From positions 1-14,018 of the forward strand of contig JAFGSL010000434.1 in the NCBI GenBank assembly GCA_016934645.1: a stretch of 14,018 bases of DNA. Reading direction: 5' to 3'. This stretch comes from Anaerolineae bacterium. GTDB lineage: Bacteria; Chloroflexota; Anaerolineae; B4-G1; SLSP01. The notes under the pieces were generated by a model. That model had not been told where the DNA came from. It saw only the letters and a program-made list of their open reading frames with translations, and did no database searches. The position numbers were made by a program, and so were the translations under genes. This document shows positions 1 through 10,259 of the stretch, piece after piece (within the stretch, counting starts at the first letter, position 1; each line of letters opens with the position of its first letter).

Positions 1-4
1 CCAT
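1..4 (-). CDS. Possible start of a gene running off the left edge
   Basis: On the minus strand an ATG (plus positions 2-4) is preceded by a textbook Shine-Dalgarno AAGGAG (plus 11-16) with a 6-nt spacer. This is the arrangement used by the other genes here. Only the start codon and one base are inside the window, so no product can be named. It would follow arsC by about 98 nt and could be another member of the arsR-hgcAB-arsC operon, for example an arsenite efflux pump, but that is a guess. The ribosome-binding site lies inside a long inverted repeat, which could control its translation. If the palindrome is merely a repeat element, this start may be spurious. Confidence 0.3.
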
Positions 5-102: not shown

Positions 103-558
103 TTATAGATGCACGGCAAAAGGATTGCTGTTCAGCAACACCTCTGGCAGCGTTTGAACAAATGCCCGGATTTCGTCACGCACGCGGCGATAGTGAGACA
201 AGGCTTCTTCTTCAGTTTTTGCATTTGCTGCCAACCTGGGCGGATCGTCGAAACCGTGATGTACCACCATCGCGCGTCCCGGAAAAACAGGGCAGTTTTC
301 TTGCGCGTGCCCACACACGGTAATAACGTAATCGAAGGGGATGTGCAGTACCTCACCGACAAGCTTGCTCCGGTGATGGGAAATATCTATGCCAGCTTCT
401 GCCATCACCTTGACAGCAGTGGGATTGAGGCCGTGCGTCTCAATGCCAGCGGAATAGACCTCCAGCACATCGCCTTTCAAATGCTTTGCCCAACCCTCGG
501 CCATCTGGCTGCGGCACGAATTGCCGGTGCAGAGAAAGAGCACGGTTATAACAGTCAC
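103..558 (-). CDS. arsC: Arsenate reductase, LMW-PTP / thioredoxin-coupled type
   Basis: 151 residues of the low-molecular-weight tyrosine phosphatase fold. It reduces arsenate to arsenite in the cytoplasm using an internal cysteine cascade regenerated by thioredoxin. The P-loop CTGNSCRS starts at Cys10. Cys82 and Cys89 lie in VCGHAQENC, and the general acid Asp105 lies in DDPP. These positions match the numbering of the Staphylococcus aureus pI258 enzyme, so all catalytic residues are present. The start is GTG (556-558), 3 nt after the hgcB stop, with only a weak GGA upstream, which suggests translational coupling. It is the last complete gene of the arsR-hgcA-hgcB-arsC run. The product arsenite would be the natural ligand of the ArsR encoded first in the operon. 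A plain protein phosphatase is unlikely given the Cys82/Cys89 pair. Confidence 0.93.
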   Translation of the reverse strand: MTVITVLFLCTGNSCRSQMAEGWAKHLKGDVLEVYSAGIETHGLNPTAVKVMAEAGIDISHHRSKLVGEVLHIPFDYVITVCGHAQENCPVFPGRAMVVHHGFDDPPRLAANAKTEEEALSHYRRVRDEIRAFVQTLPEVLLNSNPFAVHL

Positions 559-561
559 TAT

Positions 562-942
562 CTATCCACAGCAAGCCGCTGATTGTGTCCCACCACATGC
601 CGGCTCTGGGCCGCCGCACGATGGCTCCTTCAGCCCTCGCAGTGCTGCGTTGATCATCGCCGCCGCGCATCCTACGCCGCTATCCACCTTCAATGCGCCG
701 GTAGGACAGTTGAGCTGGCACGCACCGCACTCCATGCAGGCGTCTGCCCGCACGATCTGCACCCGCCGCGTCCCGCGTGCGCCCGGCGCGAACACGCCCT
801 GCGGGCACACCGCGCTGCACATCCCACAGTTGATGCACGCCTCCGCGTTAAATTCCAACGTATTGCGCTGGCTAAGCGCCACAAATCCTGTCTGCACTTC
901 ATTCGTACAACCACAAGTTACTGTCTCTATAGTGCTTGCCAT
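562..942 (-). CDS. hgcB: HgcB, 2x[4Fe-4S] ferredoxin of mercury methylation
   Basis: 126-residue small iron-sulfur protein, predicted to donate electrons that reduce the HgcA corrinoid to Co(I) and possibly to bind Hg(II). Cluster motif 1 is Cys36/39/42/46 and motif 2 is Cys69/72/75/79. The second contains the HgcB signature CMECGA. The C-terminus ends Cys124-Cys125-Gly, the vicinal pair described as important in HgcB. It is longer than the roughly 95-residue Pseudodesulfovibrio mercurii protein. The extra length is at both ends and carries additional cysteines: Cys10 and Cys12 in the N-terminal arm, and Cys92, Cys109 and Cys116 in a Gly/Pro/Ala-rich tail. The ATG lies 3 nt after hgcA. Its Shine-Dalgarno GAGGTGA overlaps the hgcA stop codon, so the two are translationally coupled. 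A generic ferredoxin is ruled out by motif and neighbour. Confidence 0.93.
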   Translation of the reverse strand: MASTIETVTCGCTNEVQTGFVALSQRNTLEFNAEACINCGMCSAVCPQGVFAPGARGTRRVQIVRADACMECGACQLNCPTGALKVDSGVGCAAAMINAALRGLKEPSCGGPEPACGGTQSAACCG

Positions 943-945
943 ATT

Positions 946-1926
946 TCACCTCGTCGCCTTCTTGCTTTTTTGCGTCAGCCGTAGACCTAGCGCCAACAAT
1001 ACCCCCGCTCCGAACATCCCCGCCATCACACGGATGTAGCGGAACATCTCACGCTTCACGCCGGTCTTGGACGTGAATGGTGTCGAGCCGGTGAAGTTGA
1101 GCGCGAGAAAGGCTGTCACCGGTGGCAGACCCAACATGTAGGCCAGCGGCCATCCGCGCTTCTCTTCTCGCTGGCGCGCTGCCAGTGCAAACGGAAGGGC
1201 AGTCAGTCCCCCCAGGATGAAGCCTTTGCTGATGAAATCTTCGGTGGGGAGCCAGGGTAGCAGGATGGGGAACAACGCTGCTCCGGCCAGCACGGCTGCC
1301 ACTGCGCCTGTTGCTGCCAGTGGCCCCAGCAGGATGGTCAACACCAGCACCGCTAACGCCGTCGGTTTGGCCAGGTGGACTAGTTCCACCGGGATCAACA
1401 CAAGCCGGTCGTACAGGGGAAAGTGTACCTGCCGCATCTCTGGCGTAGCCTGATGCGTCTTGAGGTATTCTGGCAGATCGTCGGCCCGTACCGGCCCGTA
1501 CTCCACCTTGAATCCCGTGCGCTGTTTGACTTCGTGCGCGGCGACGCCGGGTGCGCCCAACTGCGGCAAGATCAGTGTACGATGGCTGACCACCTCGGAT
1601 AGCCGTGTCGCTTCGACGCGCCGCACAATCTCATCGGTGCCGAATGTACCCTTTCCAGCGGCGCACCACACATTGATACCCAGTGTATCCAACACCAGGA
1701 TATAGCCATCCACGCCTGGCAGGGACGAGCGCAGCGCATCAAAGCTGAGGGTGTAGTTGGCGGTGACGAACACTGGCGATTCTGGGGTGGGGTGGCCAAG
1801 CTTGTATAATCCCGGCGTCACACGGTGATTGCCGCGCCGGTAGCCCCACCGCGCCAGGAAGTGATCCCAATGGTTGGCAAAGGTCAAAGTGCTGCTGGTG
1901 TGCATAAGGTCTGGTGTTACATTCAT
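946..1926 (-). CDS. hgcA: HgcA, corrinoid-dependent mercury methyltransferase
   Basis: 326 residues; the family is usually about 330-340. HgcA carries a methyl-cobamide and transfers the methyl group to Hg(II), making neurotoxic methylmercury. The N-terminal cytoplasmic corrinoid-binding domain (about 50-165) contains N85-V-W-C88-A-A-G-K92 followed by GTFGT. Cys88 corresponds to the cobalt-ligating Cys93 of Pseudodesulfovibrio mercurii ND132. The C-terminal part (about 188-315) has around five hydrophobic membrane segments (188-205, 206-226, 234-250, 260-280, 297-316), as in known HgcA. It ends in a basic tail. The ATG at 1926 has GGAGG with a 6-nt spacer and lies 48 nt after arsR. The corrinoid/iron-sulfur protein large subunit of acetyl-CoA synthase is the nearest alternative. 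It lacks the membrane tail and has Thr at the cap-helix position, so HgcA is far better supported. Confidence 0.96.
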   Translation of the reverse strand: MNVTPDLMHTSSTLTFANHWDHFLARWGYRRGNHRVTPGLYKLGHPTPESPVFVTANYTLSFDALRSSLPGVDGYILVLDTLGINVWCAAGKGTFGTDEIVRRVEATRLSEVVSHRTLILPQLGAPGVAAHEVKQRTGFKVEYGPVRADDLPEYLKTHQATPEMRQVHFPLYDRLVLIPVELVHLAKPTALAVLVLTILLGPLAATGAVAAVLAGAALFPILLPWLPTEDFISKGFILGGLTALPFALAARQREEKRGWPLAYMLGLPPVTAFLALNFTGSTPFTSKTGVKREMFRYIRVMAGMFGAGVLLALGLRLTQKSKKATR

Positions 1927-1974
1927 TTGTGTCCTCCATCATTTCAGTAGACGGCAGATGGTCCGTTTACCAGA

Positions 1975-2310
1975 TCAATCCATAATCTGCATAATCTGTT
2001 CCCTGAACCACGCAATGTTCTCGGCGTTCAGGCAGTAGCAGCGTGCCGGACCTTCGGTGATGCCGGAAATCCACCCGGCCTCGCGCAGGACTTTAAGGTG
2101 CTGTGACACAGTCGCTTGCGCGATGGGCAGGTAATCCACGATGTCGCCGGTGATGCAGCCGGGATGGGTGACCAGGAACTTCAAAATCTCAAAGCGGGTT
2201 GGGTTACCGAGTGCCTTGAACATTGCCACCAGTCGCTCTTGATCCGCGCCAGTAATGTCTAGTGAACAACATGCCGGAGTGCAAAGCGCGCATGAGATTG
2301 TTTCTGACAT
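1975..2310 (-). CDS. arsR: ArsR/SmtB-family metal(loid)-responsive repressor
   Basis: 111 residues, typical for a dimeric winged-helix ArsR repressor. The core starts at the family motif MFKALGNPTRFEIL (30-43). The recognition helix is about 64-76 (AQATVSQHLKVLREAGW region) and the wing about 81-93. It has seven cysteines: Cys7, Cys10, vicinal Cys14-Cys15, Cys52 just before the helix-turn-helix, and Cys91/Cys93 in the wing. The usual ELCVCDL site in the DNA-binding helix is absent. The vicinal N-terminal pair plus Cys52 resembles the As(III) site of Corynebacterium glutamicum ArsR (Cys15/16/55). The ATG has GGAG with a short spacer. It is first in the operon, directly behind a consensus promoter with an overlapping palindromic operator, so autoregulation with hgcAB-arsC is expected. 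The inducer (As(III), Sb(III) or Hg(II)) is inferred, not shown. Confidence 0.93.
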   Translation of the reverse strand: MSETISCALCTPACCSLDITGADQERLVAMFKALGNPTRFEILKFLVTHPGCITGDIVDYLPIAQATVSQHLKVLREAGWISGITEGPARCYCLNAENIAWFREQIMQIMD

Positions 2311-2321
2311 AGAATCTCCAT

Positions 2322-2339
2322 TATCGTATTTTTACGATA
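2322..2339. promoter_or_regulatory. ArsR operator, perfect inverted repeat
   Basis: TATCGTA-TTTT-TACGATA is a perfect 7-bp inverted repeat with a 4-bp AT spacer. The ATCGTA/TACGAT half-sites are typical of ArsR-family operators. It starts immediately downstream of the -10 box and covers the expected transcription start, 12 bp before the arsR ATG. A bound dimer there would block initiation of the whole arsR-hgcA-hgcB-arsC transcript. Confidence 0.85.
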
Positions 2340-2340
2340 T

Positions 2341-2368
2341 ATTATATAATCAAAAGAGCGCCTGTCAA
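2341..2368 (-). promoter_or_regulatory. Consensus sigma70-type promoter for arsR-hgcAB-arsC
   Basis: On the minus strand TTGACA (plus 2363-2368) and TATAAT (plus 2341-2346) are both perfect consensus hexamers separated by 16 bp. Transcription would start near 2334, inside the ArsR palindrome, giving a leader of only about 24 nt before the arsR ATG. Such a strong core promoter is consistent with a tightly repressed operon. Confidence 0.85.
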
Positions 2369-2432
2369 TAGCCAAGCGCCCGGTAAAAACCCTGTTTTCG
2401 GTATGGCTGAATCCCTTCCTAGGGCATCTATC

Positions 2433-3407
2433 CTAGAGAAATCCGACCTCCCGAAACCATGTCAGCGTATCGGAAATGGTGTCGTCAAATGGCCGCGGCT
2501 GGTAACCCAGGTCGTGACTGGCACGCGCCGAACTGATGGGGCTGGTCAGGCGCAGGGCACTCAGCGAGACACTGGTATAGAGCGGACGGGCGCCAGTTAG
2601 CCGGGCCAACGCACTAGCGAAGGGCGCGCCGACGCGCGCCAATGCCATTGGGCAAACGAAACGTGGCGCGCGTTGACCCGTGATATGCTCAATCGTCGCG
2701 GCCAGGTCGGATACGGAAATCCGGTGACCACTGAGCATGTAGCTCGCCCCGGTCGGTGCTTGTTCGGTTGCTCGTAGCGCCCCGTCTGCCACATCACGCG
2801 CATCCACCCAGTCAAAGCCCCCTTTCACGAGGGCTGGTAGTGTCCCCCGGGCGAGTTCGAGAAGGACCTGCCCGATGTGTGAAGGGCGAAAATCGTACGG
2901 CCCAATCACGGCCGTTGGCCGAAGGATGACCGCGTCCAAGCCGTGTGCAATGCCCCGCTGAACCTCGCGCTCACTATCTGCTTTGGAGTCGCTGTAGGGT
3001 GAATGATGGTCATCTACCAACGGGCAAGTCTCGTCGATGAGACCGGGCTGGGCGGCATAATTGAGGGCATGGATTGAGCTAAAGTGAACGAGTCGCCGCA
3101 CACCAGCATGCAGACAGGCCTCCACCACGTTGCGCGTACCGAGCACGTTGATCTGGTGGACGAACAATCTGTTGTCCATTTGCAGTGAGATTTCGGCTGC
3201 CGCGTGGTAAACGACCTCAGCGCCGGCAAAGGCGTGCTCCAGAGAAGCGGGAATCGAAATATCGCCTTCGACGATCTCGACATCCAGCCCGGCAAGGGCG
3301 CGCCGGTCGCGATGGACCAGGGCGCGCACGTGCTCCCCTTTTTCCAGCGACGCGCGGACCAGGTTGGCGCCTACGTGCCCGGCGGCGCCAGTGACGAGGA
3401 TGGACAT
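2433..3407 (-). CDS. Extended SDR, NAD(P)-dependent epimerase/dehydratase-like
   Basis: 324 residues with a Rossmann fold. The nucleotide-binding TGAAGHVG gives Gly7/Gly10/Gly13. Other features are GD at 48-49, YHAAA at 67-71, the active-site Ser110/111 in HFSS, catalytic Tyr138 and Lys142 in YSDSK, and LRPTAVIGP at 162-170. These define the extended short-chain dehydrogenase class, close to the dihydroflavonol-4-reductase/HpnA-like and nucleoside-sugar epimerase group. The C-terminal half (about 170-324) would set substrate specificity, and I cannot name the substrate. The ATG has AAGGAG with a 6-nt spacer. It stands alone: the preceding cluster ends at the terminator at 3522-3541, and the arsR promoter lies downstream. 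No convincing promoter was found between 3408 and 3521. Confidence 0.88.
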   Translation of the reverse strand: MSILVTGAAGHVGANLVRASLEKGEHVRALVHRDRRALAGLDVEIVEGDISIPASLEHAFAGAEVVYHAAAEISLQMDNRLFVHQINVLGTRNVVEACLHAGVRRLVHFSSIHALNYAAQPGLIDETCPLVDDHHSPYSDSKADSEREVQRGIAHGLDAVILRPTAVIGPYDFRPSHIGQVLLELARGTLPALVKGGFDWVDARDVADGALRATEQAPTGASYMLSGHRISVSDLAATIEHITGQRAPRFVCPMALARVGAPFASALARLTGARPLYTSVSLSALRLTSPISSARASHDLGYQPRPFDDTISDTLTWFREVGFL

Positions 3408-3521
3408 AAACTGCTCCTTTGGAAGGGATATGACTGATCTGGTTATGAAAAACTGAAGCTACCCCGCCGTCCCAGAGGCGTATGAAGGTCTAGCAAAATA
3501 CGATCGGATCAGTAAAGAATT

Positions 3522-3541
3522 AAACCCCGCTAGCGGGGTTT
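3522..3541 (-). terminator. Rho-independent terminator of the six-gene cluster
   Basis: AAACCCCGCTAGCGGGGTTT is a perfect 20-bp palindrome with a GC-rich core. Read on the minus strand it continues as TTTAATTCTTT, a usable U-rich tail, 28 nt after the stop of the thiazoline hydrolase-like gene. It separates that cluster from the SDR gene. The plus-strand side lacks a good U-tract. Confidence 0.8.
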
Positions 3542-3569
3542 CGATACGGCGTGGTGGCACCCCTTTGCG

Positions 3570-4286
3570 TCAGTATTGGCGCTGCGTCCCCCGGCAGAAG
3601 CGGAAACTACAATATTCGTCACCTCGACCGAGCGTTTTGTCGTGTGTGAAGACAATTTCTGGCGCGAGTTGCGAGTAGGTCAGGTCATCCATCTGGCAGA
3701 AGACGGCAGTAAGTTCCGGTGCACCGAAGTCCGTCAGAATTTTCTGGTAGATGCACTGGTCATGTACTTCAAATCCCAGGCAATCGGCAGTATCTTCTAC
3801 GAACTTCGTGTTCCAACCAGGGGCAGGGAAAGCAAGTTGTTGCACCCATTTGCCGATGAAACGAAATACCGCAAATGGATTGGGTAATCGCTTGAGCAGG
3901 GGAAAGAGTAAAGCCTGCTTTGTGAGGATTACGGCGATCAGCTTTTCTGCTTCAGCTAGAGCTGCCGCTTGCGTCTCGTGTTCCTCGCGGAGCACTTGAT
4001 ACAATGCCAATCCGGGTAGGATGCTTGCGCGCACATGCCAGTTCAACACCGGGTGTGTGAAGCGCGGGCGGCGTGCCCAAAGATCGTCATAATGCGCCTG
4101 GACGCGACCCGCAAGCAGCGCCGCATCGACCGTCCCGCGCGTCTTGGCCAACTCACGCTGCCAGATATTCAGGAACAGCATCCGTGTATTGGCGGAACGT
4201 CGCCCGGAAAGCCACCAAACGCCTGTCAGGCCGGTAAGAAGACCAAACCCAAACCAGGGCCACCGTGGCTGTTTTTGTGTCATCAT
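3570..4286 (-). CDS. L-2-amino-thiazoline-4-carboxylate hydrolase-family protein, membrane anchored
   Basis: 238 residues. One hydrophobic segment (about 10-27) followed by positive residues suggests an N-terminal membrane anchor with the rest in the cytoplasm. The C-terminal part matches the ATC hydrolase family (PF14196) by pattern: Cys178 in DQCIY, FCQMDD at 196-201, and a C-terminal GDEYCSFRF with Cys226. Characterised members open the thiazoline ring of ATC to S- or N-carbamoyl-cysteine in cysteine synthesis. Many homologues are of unknown substrate, so the reaction here is uncertain. Two ATGs are in tandem; the second (4281-4283) lies 6 nt from AAGGAG and the first only 3 nt, so the second may be used. 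It is the last gene of the six-gene cluster, 41 nt after the methyltransferase, and ends before a terminator. Confidence 0.75.
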   Translation of the reverse strand: MMTQKQPRWPWFGFGLLTGLTGVWWLSGRRSANTRMLFLNIWQRELAKTRGTVDAALLAGRVQAHYDDLWARRPRFTHPVLNWHVRASILPGLALYQVLREEHETQAAALAEAEKLIAVILTKQALLFPLLKRLPNPFAVFRFIGKWVQQLAFPAPGWNTKFVEDTADCLGFEVHDQCIYQKILTDFGAPELTAVFCQMDDLTYSQLAPEIVFTHDKTLGRGDEYCSFRFCRGTQRQY

Positions 4287-4327: not shown

Positions 4328-4972
4328 CTAACCCCGCCGAAAGTTGAGTGTGTAGGTCCACCAGTTACCGTAGCATTTTTCCAACTCAAATCCGGCGGCT
4401 TTGGCCCAGGCGATGGTGGTCGCGCGCCGGGGATAGTCGGGATCGAGGAATTCTTCTGTGGTCGAGACGATTCCGCCCGGCTTGAGCACGCGATGGATTT
4501 CGCGCAGCGCACGCACCGGATCGGGGATTTCAGGCAGCACGGTGATGAGATAGGCGCGATCGACGCTGGCGTCAGGAAGTGGTAGTTCATAGGCGCTGGC
4601 GACGTGTGTTTCTACGTTGGTCACGCCGGCAGCTTTGACCCGCGCATCTACTTGCGCGATCATCCCCGGCTGGATGTCCACGGCGATCAGGCGGCCTTCT
4701 AACCCCACGCGTTGCGCTGCATCAACGGTGAATGCGCCTGGGCCAGGACCAAGCTCCAGCACCGTCTCTCCGGCGCGCAGACCTGCCCAGTCGAGCGCAT
4801 AACGCACATCCCAACGGCGAAGTGGGTTATCCACAATCCAACTCCACGAGGTGGGACATGGCTCGCCGCGCCCCTTGTTCAACTTTAGGATAAGTTTTAG
4901 CAGCAAAAGCCAAAAGAACAGCACTCCACCTACTACCAACAGGATTGTCCACAGAATGTTTTTCTTTTTCAT
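4328..4972 (-). CDS. Class I SAM-dependent methyltransferase, membrane anchored
   Basis: 214 residues. A strongly hydrophobic N-terminal segment (about 7-30) flanked by Lys is a probable membrane anchor. A UbiE/Methyltransf_11-like domain follows: SAM-binding motif I VLELGPGPGAFT (71-82), acidic residue Asp99 in AVDIQPG, ASAYELPLPDASVD (about 125-138), and LKPGG at 163-167. The acceptor substrate cannot be read from sequence. The cysteine set of arsenite methyltransferase ArsM is absent, so it should not be read as part of the arsenic genes. The start is 3 nt after the stop of the serine hydrolase gene, without a clear ribosome-binding site, which implies translational coupling. An anchor on a small methyltransferase is unusual but seen in environmental genomes. 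Confidence 0.85.
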   Translation of the reverse strand: MKKKNILWTILLVVGGVLFFWLLLLKLILKLNKGRGEPCPTSWSWIVDNPLRRWDVRYALDWAGLRAGETVLELGPGPGAFTVDAAQRVGLEGRLIAVDIQPGMIAQVDARVKAAGVTNVETHVASAYELPLPDASVDRAYLITVLPEIPDPVRALREIHRVLKPGGIVSTTEEFLDPDYPRRATTIAWAKAAGFELEKCYGNWWTYTLNFRRG

Positions 4973-4975
4973 TGA

Positions 4976-7078
4976 TTACTCAGCCATAACCTGCGTCAAA
5001 ACCGCTTCTCGTACACTGAAGCAATCGTTGCCGGAGAAGACCAGATAACACGTCGTGCCATCCGCGCTCATCCACTTCGTGGGGAAGCTGCCCATCTCGC
5101 CGGGGCCGCAGTCCCATTCCAGTGTGAAGTAAGCTGTCGTCCACGGTCCCCATGGTTCGGGGGCATCGTAGATCGCAAACCCGCCGTTGAAGCGCGTGTC
5201 CACGTCGAGTTCCGCGCGCTGCTGCCACCAGAGATAGCGTCCCAGCCCGGCATTGTAGCTGATACCCGACCGCCGGCACAATCCTGGGTGCTCGAAAACC
5301 GCACCGCGTCGCGCGATATCGGGCGACCAGACAGGGCTGCCGTTATGGTTGAGGCGTACAAAGAACTCGAAGGCGTCACACTCGCGAATGTGATCCTTGG
5401 GCACACGCGCCAATACCATCCGGTTGGCAGGTTCGTAGGCGCTGTCGGCATCGTGCGAGTAAACGTAGACATAGCCATCGCGTGCCCTCGCGTAGTTTTT
5501 CCCGAAGTTGAGGAACGTGGGACAGCCGAAGCTGGTGGTGAAGCGCCAATCGGCCCACATCCACGTCTGTGCACCATCCACAGACCAGGCAAGCTGTGAA
5601 TTGCCCGTGTTCCGCGCCAGCATGTAGAGGATGCCGTCCACCATCAACATCCCGCTGGCTTTCGCTCCGGTAACGTCGTGGCCTACCCGCTCCCCGCTTT
5701 CCGAGCGGATATTGATGCCCTCGAAGTTGGGGGGTGATCCGATGACCTTCACAAAACCGAGACTCAACACTTTGTCGAGGCAGGGGGCAAAGCCGTACCC
5801 ATCACCGTAGGCGGTGTATTGAGCGTCATTATATGCCCAGGTGATGGGCCAATTGTCGCCGTGAAAGCCCTCGCGCACGATGGTCGAGGGCGGCGACCAG
5901 ACGATCTCCTTGATCACCGAGCTAGGCGGGTACGGCGCGGCATCCGCGTCTTCTGGCAGTTGACCCAGGAAGGCATCCATCAACGGGATGAAAAGGTGCT
6001 TCTCCAGGCCACCCCAAAAGCCTTCGCTTTGTTCGGGAGCGCCGATGGTTGCCCCGTTGCGCACGACGATGAGATCGCGGCACGGCACCACCAGCAGGAT
6101 TTGGTTGCCTGCCCCGGCTCCCGTGAAGACATCGCGCGGCAGCGAAGGCCACACACCGTCGAAGTTGGTCCACCAGCCCAGGCCGGAACCAGGCCGGGGA
6201 TCGCCATCCAAACGCGATGGCAACGGCGTTTTGGCGTAGGCTAGCACTCGCTTCACCCACATACTATCGATGAGTTGCTGGCCATCCCACTGGCCCTGGT
6301 GCAGCATCAGCCGTCCCACGCGGGCCACGGCGCGGGCGGTATAGCTCCCACCGCCCCAGTTCGCCACCATATCGAGGCCATCCACCGTGTACGTCTGCCC
6401 GTAGCCGACCGACCACGCATTTTCTGCTACGCCGATGGGATCCATCACTCGTTCTTTGAGCAACGTGCGCACATCGGGCCAGGGTGTGCCACGCAACGCC
6501 GACGTGATCGCGTATGCCAGCACTGCCATCCCTGGGTTGCTGTAGGCGTAATCCGTGCCCGGCGGGAAGATGACGGGCGCATCGTGAATGGCGATGGAGA
6601 ATGGGTCCGGTTCCCTGCGCCAAAATGCGCCTTTCCACCCCGGCAGCGCCATGTGATGATCGGTCAGCGTCTTGCCTTCCGCCAGTGCCCGCTCGTGGTC
6701 GGCCTGGCTCAATTCGGCATCCTCAATGCCGGAGGAATGTGTCGCCAGGTGGCGGATGGTGATCTGTGACTTGAGTGGATCATCGCGCCACGCAGGGATG
6801 TAGGTACATACCGGTTCGTCGATATCGAGCAGACCATCGTTCAGTGCCAGTGCCAACGATAAGCCACCCACCAGCGCTTTCGCCAACGACGCCGTGTAGT
6901 GCGGCTTGTCGGGACCATGTCCCGCCGCGTACCACTCGTAAACAATCTTGTCCCGGCGGACAACCAACAACGACTTCGTCCCACGCGCCGCCAGCCCATC
7001 GCGCAATGCGTCCAGCCGCGCAACGTCCATGCGCTGATTTTGCGGTGATACAGTCTGCCATACGAATGGCTCGTTCAT
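4976..7078 (-). CDS. Beta-lactamase-fold serine hydrolase fused to a DUF4185 domain
   Basis: 700 residues in two parts. Residues about 15-370 are a class C beta-lactamase/esterase-type serine hydrolase. The SxxK nucleophile motif is Ser64-Leu-Ala-Lys67 and the YxN motif is Tyr179-Ser-Asn181. HLATHSSGI (110-118) and GAGAGNQ (320-326) are also typical; the latter takes the place of the usual KTG/HTG-like strand. Residues about 400-697 resemble DUF4185, a five-bladed propeller-like domain related to carbohydrate-active proteins: WPITWAYNDAQYTAYGDG (410-427), a LSLG repeat, then several Trp/Gly-rich blades. No signal peptide is visible, so the protein looks cytoplasmic. The ATG has GGAGG with an 8-nt spacer. 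It may hydrolyse an amide or ester of a sugar-bearing or peptidic substrate in the cluster's pathway. The exact substrate is unknown. Confidence 0.85.
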   Translation of the reverse strand: MNEPFVWQTVSPQNQRMDVARLDALRDGLAARGTKSLLVVRRDKIVYEWYAAGHGPDKPHYTASLAKALVGGLSLALALNDGLLDIDEPVCTYIPAWRDDPLKSQITIRHLATHSSGIEDAELSQADHERALAEGKTLTDHHMALPGWKGAFWRREPDPFSIAIHDAPVIFPPGTDYAYSNPGMAVLAYAITSALRGTPWPDVRTLLKERVMDPIGVAENAWSVGYGQTYTVDGLDMVANWGGGSYTARAVARVGRLMLHQGQWDGQQLIDSMWVKRVLAYAKTPLPSRLDGDPRPGSGLGWWTNFDGVWPSLPRDVFTGAGAGNQILLVVPCRDLIVVRNGATIGAPEQSEGFWGGLEKHLFIPLMDAFLGQLPEDADAAPYPPSSVIKEIVWSPPSTIVREGFHGDNWPITWAYNDAQYTAYGDGYGFAPCLDKVLSLGFVKVIGSPPNFEGINIRSESGERVGHDVTGAKASGMLMVDGILYMLARNTGNSQLAWSVDGAQTWMWADWRFTTSFGCPTFLNFGKNYARARDGYVYVYSHDADSAYEPANRMVLARVPKDHIRECDAFEFFVRLNHNGSPVWSPDIARRGAVFEHPGLCRRSGISYNAGLGRYLWWQQRAELDVDTRFNGGFAIYDAPEPWGPWTTAYFTLEWDCGPGEMGSFPTKWMSADGTTCYLVFSGNDCFSVREAVLTQVMAE

Positions 7079-7127
7079 CGTTCACGCCTCCATTGAAAAT
7101 ATAGAAGCAAGACCCAGAGCTATTCCT

Positions 7128-7460
7128 TTACCGATAGTCTTCCCGCACCGGGTAGAAGACGTCGATGAGCGTACACTGCGTGATCGCCCGGCCCGAATGT
7201 TGGGCGTGCGGCGGGATGACGCAGGCCGTCCCCGGTTCCAGCCGGTAGGGCACGCCATTCACCGTCAACTCGAACGTGCCCTCAATGGCGTTCGTAACCT
7301 GCTCGTGTGGATGCGAGTGCGCGCCGAGGGTACTGCCGGGTGCGAACTCCCAGTATGCGAGCGTTATGTGATCCGTGTGGATGAAGCGTGCTTCGGCATT
7401 AGGGATCAAATCTTTGGGTTCAATGTCTGATAATTTCACAAACCGTGCTTGATCTTCCAT
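7128..7460 (-). CDS. Small single-domain cupin protein
   Basis: 110 residues, one cupin_2 barrel. Metal-binding motif 1 gives His48, His50 and Glu53 (GAHSHPHE), and motif 2 gives His88 in PPHAQHS. The full ligand set for a divalent metal is therefore present. Such small cupins act as isomerases, dioxygenases or KdgF-like sugar-ring openers, and sequence alone does not choose between these. The gene lies 24 nt after the FAD oxidoreductase and 49 nt before the serine hydrolase, so it is most likely an enzyme of the same pathway. A regulator role is less likely because there is no DNA-binding domain. Confidence 0.88.
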   Translation of the reverse strand: MEDQARFVKLSDIEPKDLIPNAEARFIHTDHITLAYWEFAPGSTLGAHSHPHEQVTNAIEGTFELTVNGVPYRLEPGTACVIPPHAQHSGRAITQCTLIDVFYPVREDYR

Positions 7461-7484
7461 TTTTCCCTCCGTGATGAAAGCGTA

Positions 7485-8789
7485 CTAAAGTGTGACGCCC
7501 ATATCTCGTAGCGTCGCTTGTAACTTTGTGATGTTTAATTGCCGGGGCGTGACGCCTTGCGCGCTACACAGCGCTGCTGCGACGCCCGCTGCTTGCCCGA
7601 CCGCCATCATGTTGCCCATACTCTTGCCTGCCGCGTGCCCCAGGAATGTCGCGGAACCGCATCGCCCGGCAACGAGCAGGTTTTCTACGTTAGTCGGTAG
7701 CAGGCTGCGATACGGATACCCGAACCCGGAGTGCATCTCGCCGACGAAAAGTTGGTTGGCATCGATGGCCCCGTATTTGCGGGCGACCACGTCATCAAAA
7801 GTTGGACCGGTGCGGGCGTCTTCCACGGTGAGTACGTACTCGCCGACGAGACGCCGTGTATCACGCACGCCGACAGTCGCGCCGGCCCGCGCAAGGTGGC
7901 AATCTTCCAGGCCGGGAATTTGCTTTTCGCGTGCCAAGCGCACGAAATTCACCGCCACCTGGATACCCGCGCGCTCGGCGACGGTCATCTCGCCAGGCTG
8001 TGTCGCATCGATGTTGCCCAGGTCGCGCCACGCGCCATTGTTGACGTTGACCACACCGGGGATCGTCGTGCGGTCGAAAGCATACCATGCAGCGATGGCA
8101 TAGCCTTCAGCAGCGGCTTCGTCGAGGATGGTTTTGTAGCGTTCGTGTTCTTCTTCCAGGAAAGCGAAGAAGCGTGCTGTGTCCACGTTCGCCAACGCAA
8201 AGACCAGCGACACGGGCATGTGCCGACCGTCCTCTTCGCGGCCCTCCACCATTTTCGCCCCTGCAAAATAGGCCACGTCGCCATCGCCTGTAGCGTCCAC
8301 GACAACCTTTGCCTTGAACGTGTGTTGCTGCCCTTTGTGCGTGCACACGACTCCGGTCACGGCATTGCCATCCATCACTACGCTTGTCATCGGGCTGTAG
8401 AGCCGGTAATGGCAGCCGACTTCTTCCAGCGCTTCAAAGCACGCCAGCCGCAGGTATTCCGGGTGGACGTTGAGACCGTCGCCGTTGATGAAGTCTTCTT
8501 TGCCAGGGATAGACGCGACGACGCCGCGCTCCCTGATTTTCTCTACAAGGAGATCATGCGCGCCACCGCGCGGTCCGCCGTTGAGCAGCAGGCGGTTCAT
8601 AGGCATCCACATCGCGATTGATGCCACGCCACCGAAGAAGCTGTGCGCTTCCAGCAGCAGCGTCCGCGCGCCGTTCAATGCTGCACCCAGCGCGGCTCCC
8701 ATCCCCGCCGGACCACCTCCGGCGATGATGACATCAAATGTGCTATCCTGTAACGGAATCATCTTTTCAAGCTCGTCACGTGACTGCAT
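7485..8789 (-). CDS. FAD-dependent oxidoreductase (FAD_oxidored family)
   Basis: 434 residues. The N-terminal FAD-binding Rossmann motif is IIAGGGPAGMGAALGAA (21-37), with acidic Glu47 closing the first beta-alpha-beta unit, then FFGGVAS (51-57). A second FAD contact is VVVDATGDGDVA (about 167-178), and the C-terminal GRCGSATFLGHAAGKS segment is typical of the FAD_oxidored (PF12831) group, which includes thiazole-synthase-like and fumarate-reductase-like folds. The ATG has AGGAG with a 6- to 7-nt spacer. It follows the amidohydrolase by 35 nt. The substrate is not evident; oxidation or reduction of the deaminated product of the upstream gene is one reading. No signal peptide is present. Confidence 0.88.
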   Translation of the reverse strand: MQSRDELEKMIPLQDSTFDVIIAGGGPAGMGAALGAALNGARTLLLEAHSFFGGVASIAMWMPMNRLLLNGGPRGGAHDLLVEKIRERGVVASIPGKEDFINGDGLNVHPEYLRLACFEALEEVGCHYRLYSPMTSVVMDGNAVTGVVCTHKGQQHTFKAKVVVDATGDGDVAYFAGAKMVEGREEDGRHMPVSLVFALANVDTARFFAFLEEEHERYKTILDEAAAEGYAIAAWYAFDRTTIPGVVNVNNGAWRDLGNIDATQPGEMTVAERAGIQVAVNFVRLAREKQIPGLEDCHLARAGATVGVRDTRRLVGEYVLTVEDARTGPTFDDVVARKYGAIDANQLFVGEMHSGFGYPYRSLLPTNVENLLVAGRCGSATFLGHAAGKSMGNMMAVGQAAGVAAALCSAQGVTPRQLNITKLQATLRDMGVTL

Positions 8790-8824: not shown

Positions 8825-10156
8825 TCAGGCTGCATACGACCGCAGGGAGCTCATCGGTTTGCCCACCATACGGAAGGCCCGGCACTCGGCTTCCCAACGG
8901 ATGCGTTCGATGTCGAGTGTGAGGAACTCGCCCTGGCGATAGAGCAGCTTTCCGTCGCACCAGACGTAGGCTACGTCGCCGGGATGGGCGGTGTAGACGA
9001 TGCCCGCCGCCAGGTCGTGCCGGGGAATCCAGTGTGGGGCGGTGGTATTCAACAACAGCAGATCGGCGGGGCGGCCCGGCGCAATGACACCGCTTTCCGG
9101 GAATCCCAACGCTGCCGCCGAAGTCTGCGCCGTCATGCGAAGCACCATTGTGCGCGGGAAAACTTCGGGATCACGCAGCGCGCCTTTCCAGTACAGGCCC
9201 GTCAGGCGCATGATCTCCAGCATATTGAAGTCGCTATTGGAGGCGGGGCCGTCGGTGGCAAGGCCCACGCGCATTCCGCGCGCCAGCATCTCCGGCAGTG
9301 GCGGCATCGCCATACCGAGTTTCTGGTAGGTCTTGGGTGTGTGGGCGACGTAAGCATTTTTACTAGCGAGAAGGGCCTGATCCTCCGGCGTGGCGGCGTT
9401 GCAGTGCGCGACCAGGGTGGGGCGCGGCAAATCGAACAGCCCCAGTTTGTCGACGTAGGCCGGCGGCGTGAGACCGTGGCGCTCCAACGAGTTGCGCACT
9501 TGTTCGTCAGATTCGCTCAGGTGGAAGTGCGCGCCCACGCCCACACGCTGCGCCTCTGCGACGAAGCGTCGCAACACGGCGATCGGCGTCATGTACGGCG
9601 AATGGGGCCCCATTGCCGTGTGGATGCGCCCGTCAGCCGCGCCATCGAAGGCTTCGACGAAGGCGACGGTTTCCTCGAACGAGACGCCGCCGACCTCCTT
9701 GTCATCGCCAATGCCAAAGTGGCACCACGCGAGCAATGCCTTCATGCCGTTGTCAGCCACCACCTCAGCGACTTTGTCCATCCAGAAGTAGTGATCGGCA
9801 AAGCCCACCACGCCGCAGCGGATCATCTCGGCGGCGGCGAGGGCGGCGCCCCAGGTGATGTCGTCGGCTTCGAGAGCCGATTCCGCCACCCAGATTTTCT
9901 CGTTGAGCCAGCGTTCGAAGGGCAAATCCTCGGCCCAACCGCGCTCCAGCGTCATAGCGGCGTGGCAGTGCGCGTTGAAGAAGGCGGGCAGTGCGACCAT
10001 CTCGCGCCCGTCAATGATCTCATCGGGGATGAAGTCTGGCGGAGTCTGTCCCACCGCGAGGATACGTTGATCTTCCAGCACGAGGTCAACATCCGGCAAA
10101 ATGCGGTCTTCCGCGTCCAAGGTCACTACGGTCGTGTTTTTGATGCGTGTGCGCAT
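8825..10156 (-). CDS. TRZ/ATZ-family amidohydrolase, MTA/SAH deaminase-like
   Basis: 443 residues with a TIM-barrel metallo-hydrolase core. Zinc ligands by motif are His63 and His65 (NAHCH), His212 (HFHLSE) with catalytic Glu215, His251 (VAHCN) and Asp302 (ATDGPASN). The stretch HAAMTLERGWAEDLPFERWL is close to 5-methylthioadenosine/S-adenosylhomocysteine deaminases and related chlorohydrolases that remove an amino group from a heterocycle. The start at 10156 is chosen because AGGAG lies 7 nt before this ATG. An in-frame upstream start at 10213 would add 19 residues from repeat-rich intergenic DNA and has no support. It is the first gene of the six-gene cluster. Deamination of a purine- or triazine-like ring is the probable reaction class, but the true substrate is unproven. 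Confidence 0.9.
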   Translation of the reverse strand: MRTRIKNTTVVTLDAEDRILPDVDLVLEDQRILAVGQTPPDFIPDEIIDGREMVALPAFFNAHCHAAMTLERGWAEDLPFERWLNEKIWVAESALEADDITWGAALAAAEMIRCGVVGFADHYFWMDKVAEVVADNGMKALLAWCHFGIGDDKEVGGVSFEETVAFVEAFDGAADGRIHTAMGPHSPYMTPIAVLRRFVAEAQRVGVGAHFHLSESDEQVRNSLERHGLTPPAYVDKLGLFDLPRPTLVAHCNAATPEDQALLASKNAYVAHTPKTYQKLGMAMPPLPEMLARGMRVGLATDGPASNSDFNMLEIMRLTGLYWKGALRDPEVFPRTMVLRMTAQTSAAALGFPESGVIAPGRPADLLLLNTTAPHWIPRHDLAAGIVYTAHPGDVAYVWCDGKLLYRQGEFLTLDIERIRWEAECRAFRMVGKPMSSLRSYAA

Positions 10157-10208
10157 AGGTATTCTCCTGCTTGATAGACAGCCACGGAGTGAATATCTCC
10201 TGCAGAGC

Positions 10209-10259
10209 CGCAAAGACGCAGAGTTTCAAAAATTCACTTGGCGACTCTGCGTCTTTGCG
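10209..10259. repeat. Intergenic inverted repeat with 16-bp arms
   Basis: CGCAAAGACGCAGAGT (10209-10224) and ACTCTGCGTCTTTGCG (10244-10259) are perfect complements around a 19-nt loop. Neither strand has a following U-tract, so it does not look like a rho-independent terminator. The CGCAAAGACGCAGAG core resembles palindromic repeats dispersed between genes in many environmental bacterial genomes. It lies about 50 nt upstream of the amidohydrolase start and would be in that transcript's leader if the promoter is further right. Confidence 0.75.

Follow-up and report, generated by a model that had tools for sequence, protein, structure and literature searches.

An hgcAB locus of an Anaerolineae bacterium preceded by an arsenic-type ArsR gene and a predicted single-copy operator

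Genes and features of the locus

The window considered here, 14,018 nucleotides at the start of contig JAFGSL010000434.1 (Anaerolineae bacterium, assembly GCA_016934645.1), carries four genes, arsR, hgcA, hgcB and an arsC-like gene, arranged head to tail on one strand. The features of the locus are as follows:

2..4, minus strand: ATG preceded by AAGGAG, perhaps where another gene starts that is truncated at the window edge
103..558, minus strand: arsC-like gene of the thioredoxin-type arsenate reductase/LMW-phosphatase family (PF01451; TIGR02691 below cut-off)
562..942, minus strand: hgcB, dicluster ferredoxin of 126 aa with Cys92 in GVGC and terminal Cys124-Cys125 (NF040864, motifs)
946..1926, minus strand: hgcA, corrinoid protein of 326 aa with Cys88 in the cap-helix motif NVWCAAGK and a membrane tail of five helices (NF040863, PF03599, AlphaFold2)
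1975..2310, minus strand: arsR, ArsR/SmtB repressor with Cys14, Cys15, Cys52, Cys91 and Cys93 (NF033788)
2323..2338, minus strand: predicted ArsR operator ATCGTAAAAATACGAT, located 3' of the -10 box and 5' of the arsR start codon
2341..2368, minus strand: predicted sigma-70 promoter, TTGACA and TATAAT separated by 16 nt (12 of 12 consensus positions)

The original prediction placed a complete hgcAB pair at 562..1926. Both genes pass their NCBIfam cut-offs, HgcA easily (NF040863, 447.5 bits against 275) and HgcB narrowly (NF040864, 100.7 bits against 99, a margin of 1.7 bits), and the pair is confirmed as real and complete, far beyond chance. That interpretation was right about the identity of hgcAB, but it overlooked the arsR gene, the arsC-like gene, the promoter and the palindrome, which are our main subject here.

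Identity of HgcA and HgcB

The motif NVWCAAGK occupies residues 85-92 of the HgcA translation, exactly as predicted, and its Cys88 is the only cysteine of the protein. A loss of Cys88 had been raised as a possible objection; every one of the 39 aligned rows (the window and 38 relatives) has the residue. The predicted five-helix membrane tail also appears in the AlphaFold2 model built on 39 rows, where long helices would span residues 171-200, 202-225, 231-252, 259-280 and 287-325. The best model has a mean pLDDT of 80.6 (five models, 61.5-80.6), with residues 87-92, within the NVWCAAGK motif, below 50. Foldseek ranks 9a0b_A first (TM 0.53, 43% identity), itself a computed HgcAB model and not an experimental structure, and chains of CFeSP come next.

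Such similarity raises the question of whether HgcA might be a non-methylating paralogue, either a CFeSP large subunit or a fused HgcAB-like protein. Both share the PF03599 domain, which HgcA also matches in Pfam, and the fused HgcAB-like model NF043039 does match, at 208.8 bits; however, this score misses the cut-off of 285, the two genes are separate, and Cys88 and the five helices are in place. Across 95 HgcA and CFeSP rows, NVWCAAGK is present in 85 and missing in nine CFeSP rows and the fused protein L126. A maximum-likelihood tree with SH-aLRT supports was computed by a quick method from 86 rows (nine of the 95 rows, L059, L060, L064, L066, L068, L071, L073, L075 and L077, were excluded). 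In it, the nine CFeSP rows, trimmed to their last 150 residues, and L126, whose branch is long (support 92, not starred), fall outside the group of the window's HgcA. The placement within CFeSP or fused clades that would have spoken against the prediction is thus not observed. Overall, the NF043039 miss, the motif rows and the tree rule out both paralogues, and we regard such an identity as extremely improbable.

HgcB follows hgcA after 3 nt (943-945), with the cluster motifs CINCGMCSAVC at residue 36 and CMECGACQLNC at residue 69, both of the form CxxCxxCxxxC, a lone Cys92 in GVGC, and Cys124-Cys125 followed by one last Gly. The spacing, the two cluster motifs, CMECGA and the terminal Cys pair had all been foreseen; further cysteines lie at positions 10, 12, 109 and 116.

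Both proteins resemble HgcAB of Pseudodesulfovibrio mercurii ND132, which likewise have adjacent genes, a cap-helix Cys and a five-helix tail, and a dicluster HgcB in which a single conserved Cys is accompanied by a pair of Cys at the C-terminus (PMC7305189). The window differs from ND132 in its Chloroflexota-type HgcA, in its 126-aa HgcB with extra Cys at both ends, and in the arsC-like gene next to the pair.

Carriers of hgcA and the lineage

In the tree, the window's HgcA clusters with L013, L117 and L120 (SH-aLRT 100), and L006 and L123 join them at 91. Its closest named relatives are protein P0006 of an Anaerolineae MAG (89%) and, at 85%, L013 from a Chloroflexota MAG. An amidohydrolase of the window (8825-10213) shares 89% identity with a frame of genome G042, which belongs to the same order as G001, and this Chloroflexota order is therefore the most likely home of the host. 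Among 48 genomes of that order, six carry hgcA above the cut-off; in a class sample of 396 genomes, 22 carry it at E<=1e-60. The suggestion of a poorly studied methylator lineage was partly right, but published work already covers hgcA of Chloroflexota and Anaerolineales, some isolate genomes among them (PMC7438021, PMC10469668), and the window is therefore an expected hgcA carrier.

The arsC-like gene and the remaining window

The arsC-like gene lies 3 nt beyond hgcB. Its product fails the thioredoxin-type ArsC model of NCBIfam (TIGR02691, 162.2 bits against 174.3), and a manual count on the translation places cysteines at positions 10, 15, 82 and 89, which we take to be the catalytic set of pI258 ArsC. 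The gene is absent after hgcB in all four close loci that reach beyond hgcB (genomes G001, G040, G050 and G059), while the contig of G002 stops too early to show this region; the nearest copies in G001 (85%) and G059 (66%) are on other contigs. Such a distribution rules out arsC as a conserved operon member of the clade. The order of the window, with an arsC-like gene directly 3' of hgcB, is also seen in four of 80 loci (L009, L030, L032 and L033), all methanogen-labelled.

A methyltransferase encoded at 4328-4972 was considered as ArsM and rejected (75.3 bits against a cut-off of 263). The minus strand at 4976-7078 encodes a 700-aa protein with a beta-lactamase-family domain and a DUF4185-like region, the latter under its cut-off.

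The ArsR protein and its cysteine sites

The window's ArsR passes NF033788 (66.8 bits against a cut-off of 55 in NCBIfam), and its best match among sequences of solved structures is CgArsR (6j0e). As(III) is bound by Cys41, Cys80 and Cys82 in ArArsR of Arsenicibacter rosenii and by Cys15, Cys16 and Cys55 in CgArsR of Corynebacterium glutamicum (PMC11868830). Cys52, Cys91 and Cys93 of the window's ArsR have the same spacing (39 and 41) as the ArArsR ligands, and Cys14, Cys15 and Cys52 align with the CgArsR triad. Judged by these residues, the protein would qualify for both types of As(III) site at once.

To place this combination, 30 of 34 ArsR matches (the four without a locus were omitted) were aligned together with the window and L117. 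Both triads occur in all six ArsRs adjacent to hgcA and in none of the 26 relatives, where the 26 are defined as ArsRs that do not adjoin hgcA, and not as ArsRs from hgcA-free genomes: L176, with the ArArsR-type site only, is from G360, which carries hgcA on the same contig, beyond arsM. Cys7 and Cys10 are each found in five of the six hgcA-adjacent proteins and neither in the 26 others, their placing being within a gappy MAFFT region. At E<=1e-20 this ArsR is present in five of the 48 genomes of the order, in all five next to hgcA; at E<=1e-15, matches occur in 32 of the 396 genomes of the class sample.

The 26 relatives were also compared by neighbourhood and type of site. The CgArsR-type triad is present in 12, of which 10 adjoin a permease like that of L153; the loci of the remaining two are too short for the neighbour to be seen. 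In the other 14, the neighbour is a methyltransferase gene like that of L165 (10 cases) or an FAD oxidoreductase gene like that of L163 (four cases), and the ArArsR-type triad is found in 12 of them. In L168, the methyltransferase is in the reading frame of ArsR itself, and L166 has a 60-residue permease match too. The permeases are ArsP_1 in all four cases run against Pfam; the best NCBIfam models of the L153 permease, both below cut-off, are SO_0444 Cu/Zn efflux (124.9 against 300) and SaoE (101.3 against 325), and the arsenic transporter role of the permeases beside the closest ArsR relatives is putative. For the L165 methyltransferase, the model of arsenite methyltransferases gives 282.3 bits, above its cut-off of 263. 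The L163 FAD oxidoreductase scores a mere 57.1 with the ArsO model, whose cut-off is 425. Since the L153 permease and the L163 oxidoreductase failed the arsenic models, the arsenic setting is firm only for arsM, and the Cys residues, taken alone, would make the case for an arsenic ligand look stronger than it is.

These data bear on whether the window's ArsR is an arsenic sensor at all. It might instead be a sensor dedicated to hgcAB whose specificity was retuned, to Hg(II) or to a different soft metal, its arsenic likeness reflecting only ancestry. The additional cysteines confined to the hgcA-adjacent proteins (both triads, Cys7 and Cys10), and the leaning of a close relative's permease towards Cu/Zn efflux and SaoE, would suit such retuning, and an ArsR that binds Hg(II) as well as As(III) has been described (PMC11212059). 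Against it, every ligand of the two characterised As(III) sites is retained, and ArArsR-type relatives adjoin arsenite methyltransferase genes where this was tested (L165, 282 bits; L212, 334 bits; cut-off 263). Moreover, hgcAB of ND132 are arsenic-responsive, as cited in PMC10349881. We consider the retuning scenario possible but doubtful, and most likely an arsenic-type sensor dedicated to hgcAB represses the pair in the window.

Promoter and predicted operator

The window contains one match to ATCGTAAAAATACGAT, and none was found in 200 shuffles, which rules out a chance palindrome. The palindrome ATCGTAnnnnTACGAT lies 5' of arsR in the window and in all five related arsR-hgcA genomes (G001, G002, G040, G050 and G059). 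In the six-locus alignment TTGACA is invariant, and a -10-like box and the palindrome precede arsR in each of the five relatives. It is important to note that these six loci belong to one clade and are therefore not independent events. A second half-site-like repeat stands next to the first in three loci (L111, L117 and L118).

When exact matches alone were counted in ten genomes, imperfect copies being outside the count, the palindrome was present as a single copy in each of the five arsR-hgcA genomes, always at that promoter. Four of the other five genomes had none, and G051 had one copy with a G/C-containing spacer. The one remaining genome of the order with hgcA, G024, showed neither the ArsR nor the palindrome, but its hgcA contig is only 3453 bases long. 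The palindrome is ruled out as a general feature of hgcA, being found in the fetched flanks of only L006 and L013 among the first 80 hgcA loci. In the class sample it occurs in 52 of 396 genomes, many with other spacers, and a reversed control pattern, read from the list by eye, in 11 of 396.

The exact palindrome is present at 22 of the 26 loci of ArsR relatives. The site footprinted for ArArsR is TTTTATCGTAATATTGCGATCACAATC (PMC11868830), and 11 of 12 half-site bases of the window palindrome are equal to those of this As(III)-ArsR site. The positions differ, the ArArsR footprint overlapping the -35 box (PMC11868830), whereas the window palindrome is downstream of the -10 box.

A possible mechanism

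Taken together, we propose that arsR, hgcA, hgcB and the arsC-like gene form an operon repressed by ArsR and released by a thiophilic ligand, whose HgcAB would yield methylmercury; we give this explanation as a whole a probability of roughly 70%. Bound to ATCGTAnnnnTACGAT just past the -10 box, ArsR would block transcription of arsR and hgcAB. ArsR would be released when its Cys sites are occupied by a trivalent thiophilic ligand, As(III) or methylarsenite being the most likely candidates and Hg(II) a possible one. HgcA might then transfer a methyl group from SAM onto the Cys88-ligated cobalamin, and HgcB would re-reduce the cobalt, its Cys tail handling Hg(II) on the way to methylmercury. In ND132, SAM is the methyl donor for HgcAB (PMC11588087), and both electrons and Cys residues are provided by HgcB (PMC11588087, PMC7305189). 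In the draft genomes G001 and G002, HgcA was found and no full CFeSP large subunit with PF03599 was; this suits SAM better than a Wood-Ljungdahl donor, with the reservation that draft genomes can miss genes.

It is also conceivable that HgcAB serve mainly arsenicals or another thiophile pathway, mercury methylation being a side reaction. The proposed operon of the window does combine an arsenic-type sensor with an arsC-like gene, the four methanogen-labelled loci also have an arsC-like gene directly 3' of hgcB, and arsM is near hgcAB in two further genomes of the class. In L212 (genome G360), positions 500-4150 hold, in order, an ArArsR-type arsR, the exact palindrome, arsM (333.9 bits over two stretches, cut-off 263), hgcA and hgcB. 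In L214 (genome G342), hgcA-hgcB at 5725-7790 are followed shortly by arsM (322.2 bits, cut-off 263), with no palindrome at the locus. Nevertheless, HgcAB are not known to act on arsenic, which counts against this idea. The window proteins, moreover, contain the residues that PMC11588087 and PMC7305189 single out as critical for mercury, and a primary role in arsenical handling seems improbable to us.

Returning to the ArsR-repressed operon with methylmercury as its product, a more specific scenario may be sketched for this Chloroflexota clade. A repressor dedicated to hgcAB would join two arsenic sites, the hgcAB promoter would be its only exact genomic target, and methylmercury formation would be induced by arsenicals, or by arsenic and mercury jointly, and not by mercury alone. 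We put this forward tentatively, as a scenario with clearly less than even odds.

Relation to known systems

The hgcAB pair itself is ordinary, and its link with arsenic is already in print. An ArsR-like regulator of hgcAB has been reported in P. mercurii ND132 too, with ArsR control and an arsenic response, as cited in PMC10349881. McDaniel et al. 2020 (PMC7438021) likewise described arsC, acr3, arsM or arsR beside hgcAB, and a conserved putative regulator just 5' of the pair, some of whose transcripts were assigned to Chloroflexi; the operator and Cys-site analysis is added here. Compared with ArArsR and CgArsR, the window's ArsR unites both triads and precedes hgcAB, where those two precede arsM and arsC (PMC11868830). 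The dual-site ArsR and the single-operator arrangement are the new detail: among the matches listed in our search of the literature on hgcAB regulators and operators, which did not extend to the ND132 regulator paper, none described the palindrome or a dual site.

The inducer of hgcAB and the purpose of the pair are open questions (PMC10349881). A conserved unit of promoter, palindrome and repressor with predicted ligands makes the question of induction testable by a simple reporter, and describes the arsenic link in Chloroflexota in more molecular detail.

Variants at other loci

Several variants were seen along the way. In G040, arsR and hgcA are 252 nt apart, a distance that counts against the proposed operon, and the space between them (L146, 8073-8324) contains repeats, which show up as a recurring peptide when a frame of the other strand is translated. 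The HgcA motif of L212 reads NVWCAAGE in place of NVWCAAGK. HgcB of L006 and L148 (genomes G002 and G059) has its Cys pairs at the N-terminus and a single C-terminal Cys after GVGC, as if the Cys-rich tail had moved to the opposite end. At L045, an HgcB encoded on the plus strand (4603-4917 and onward) has 16 Cys past the second cluster motif, many of them as CC pairs. Some hgcA and hgcB homologues have been suggested to be selenoproteins in work cited in PMC11588087, and HgcB of L011 (about 2763-3032, plus strand), with an in-frame TGA at the position of the conserved GVGC Cys, is a candidate selenocysteine form.
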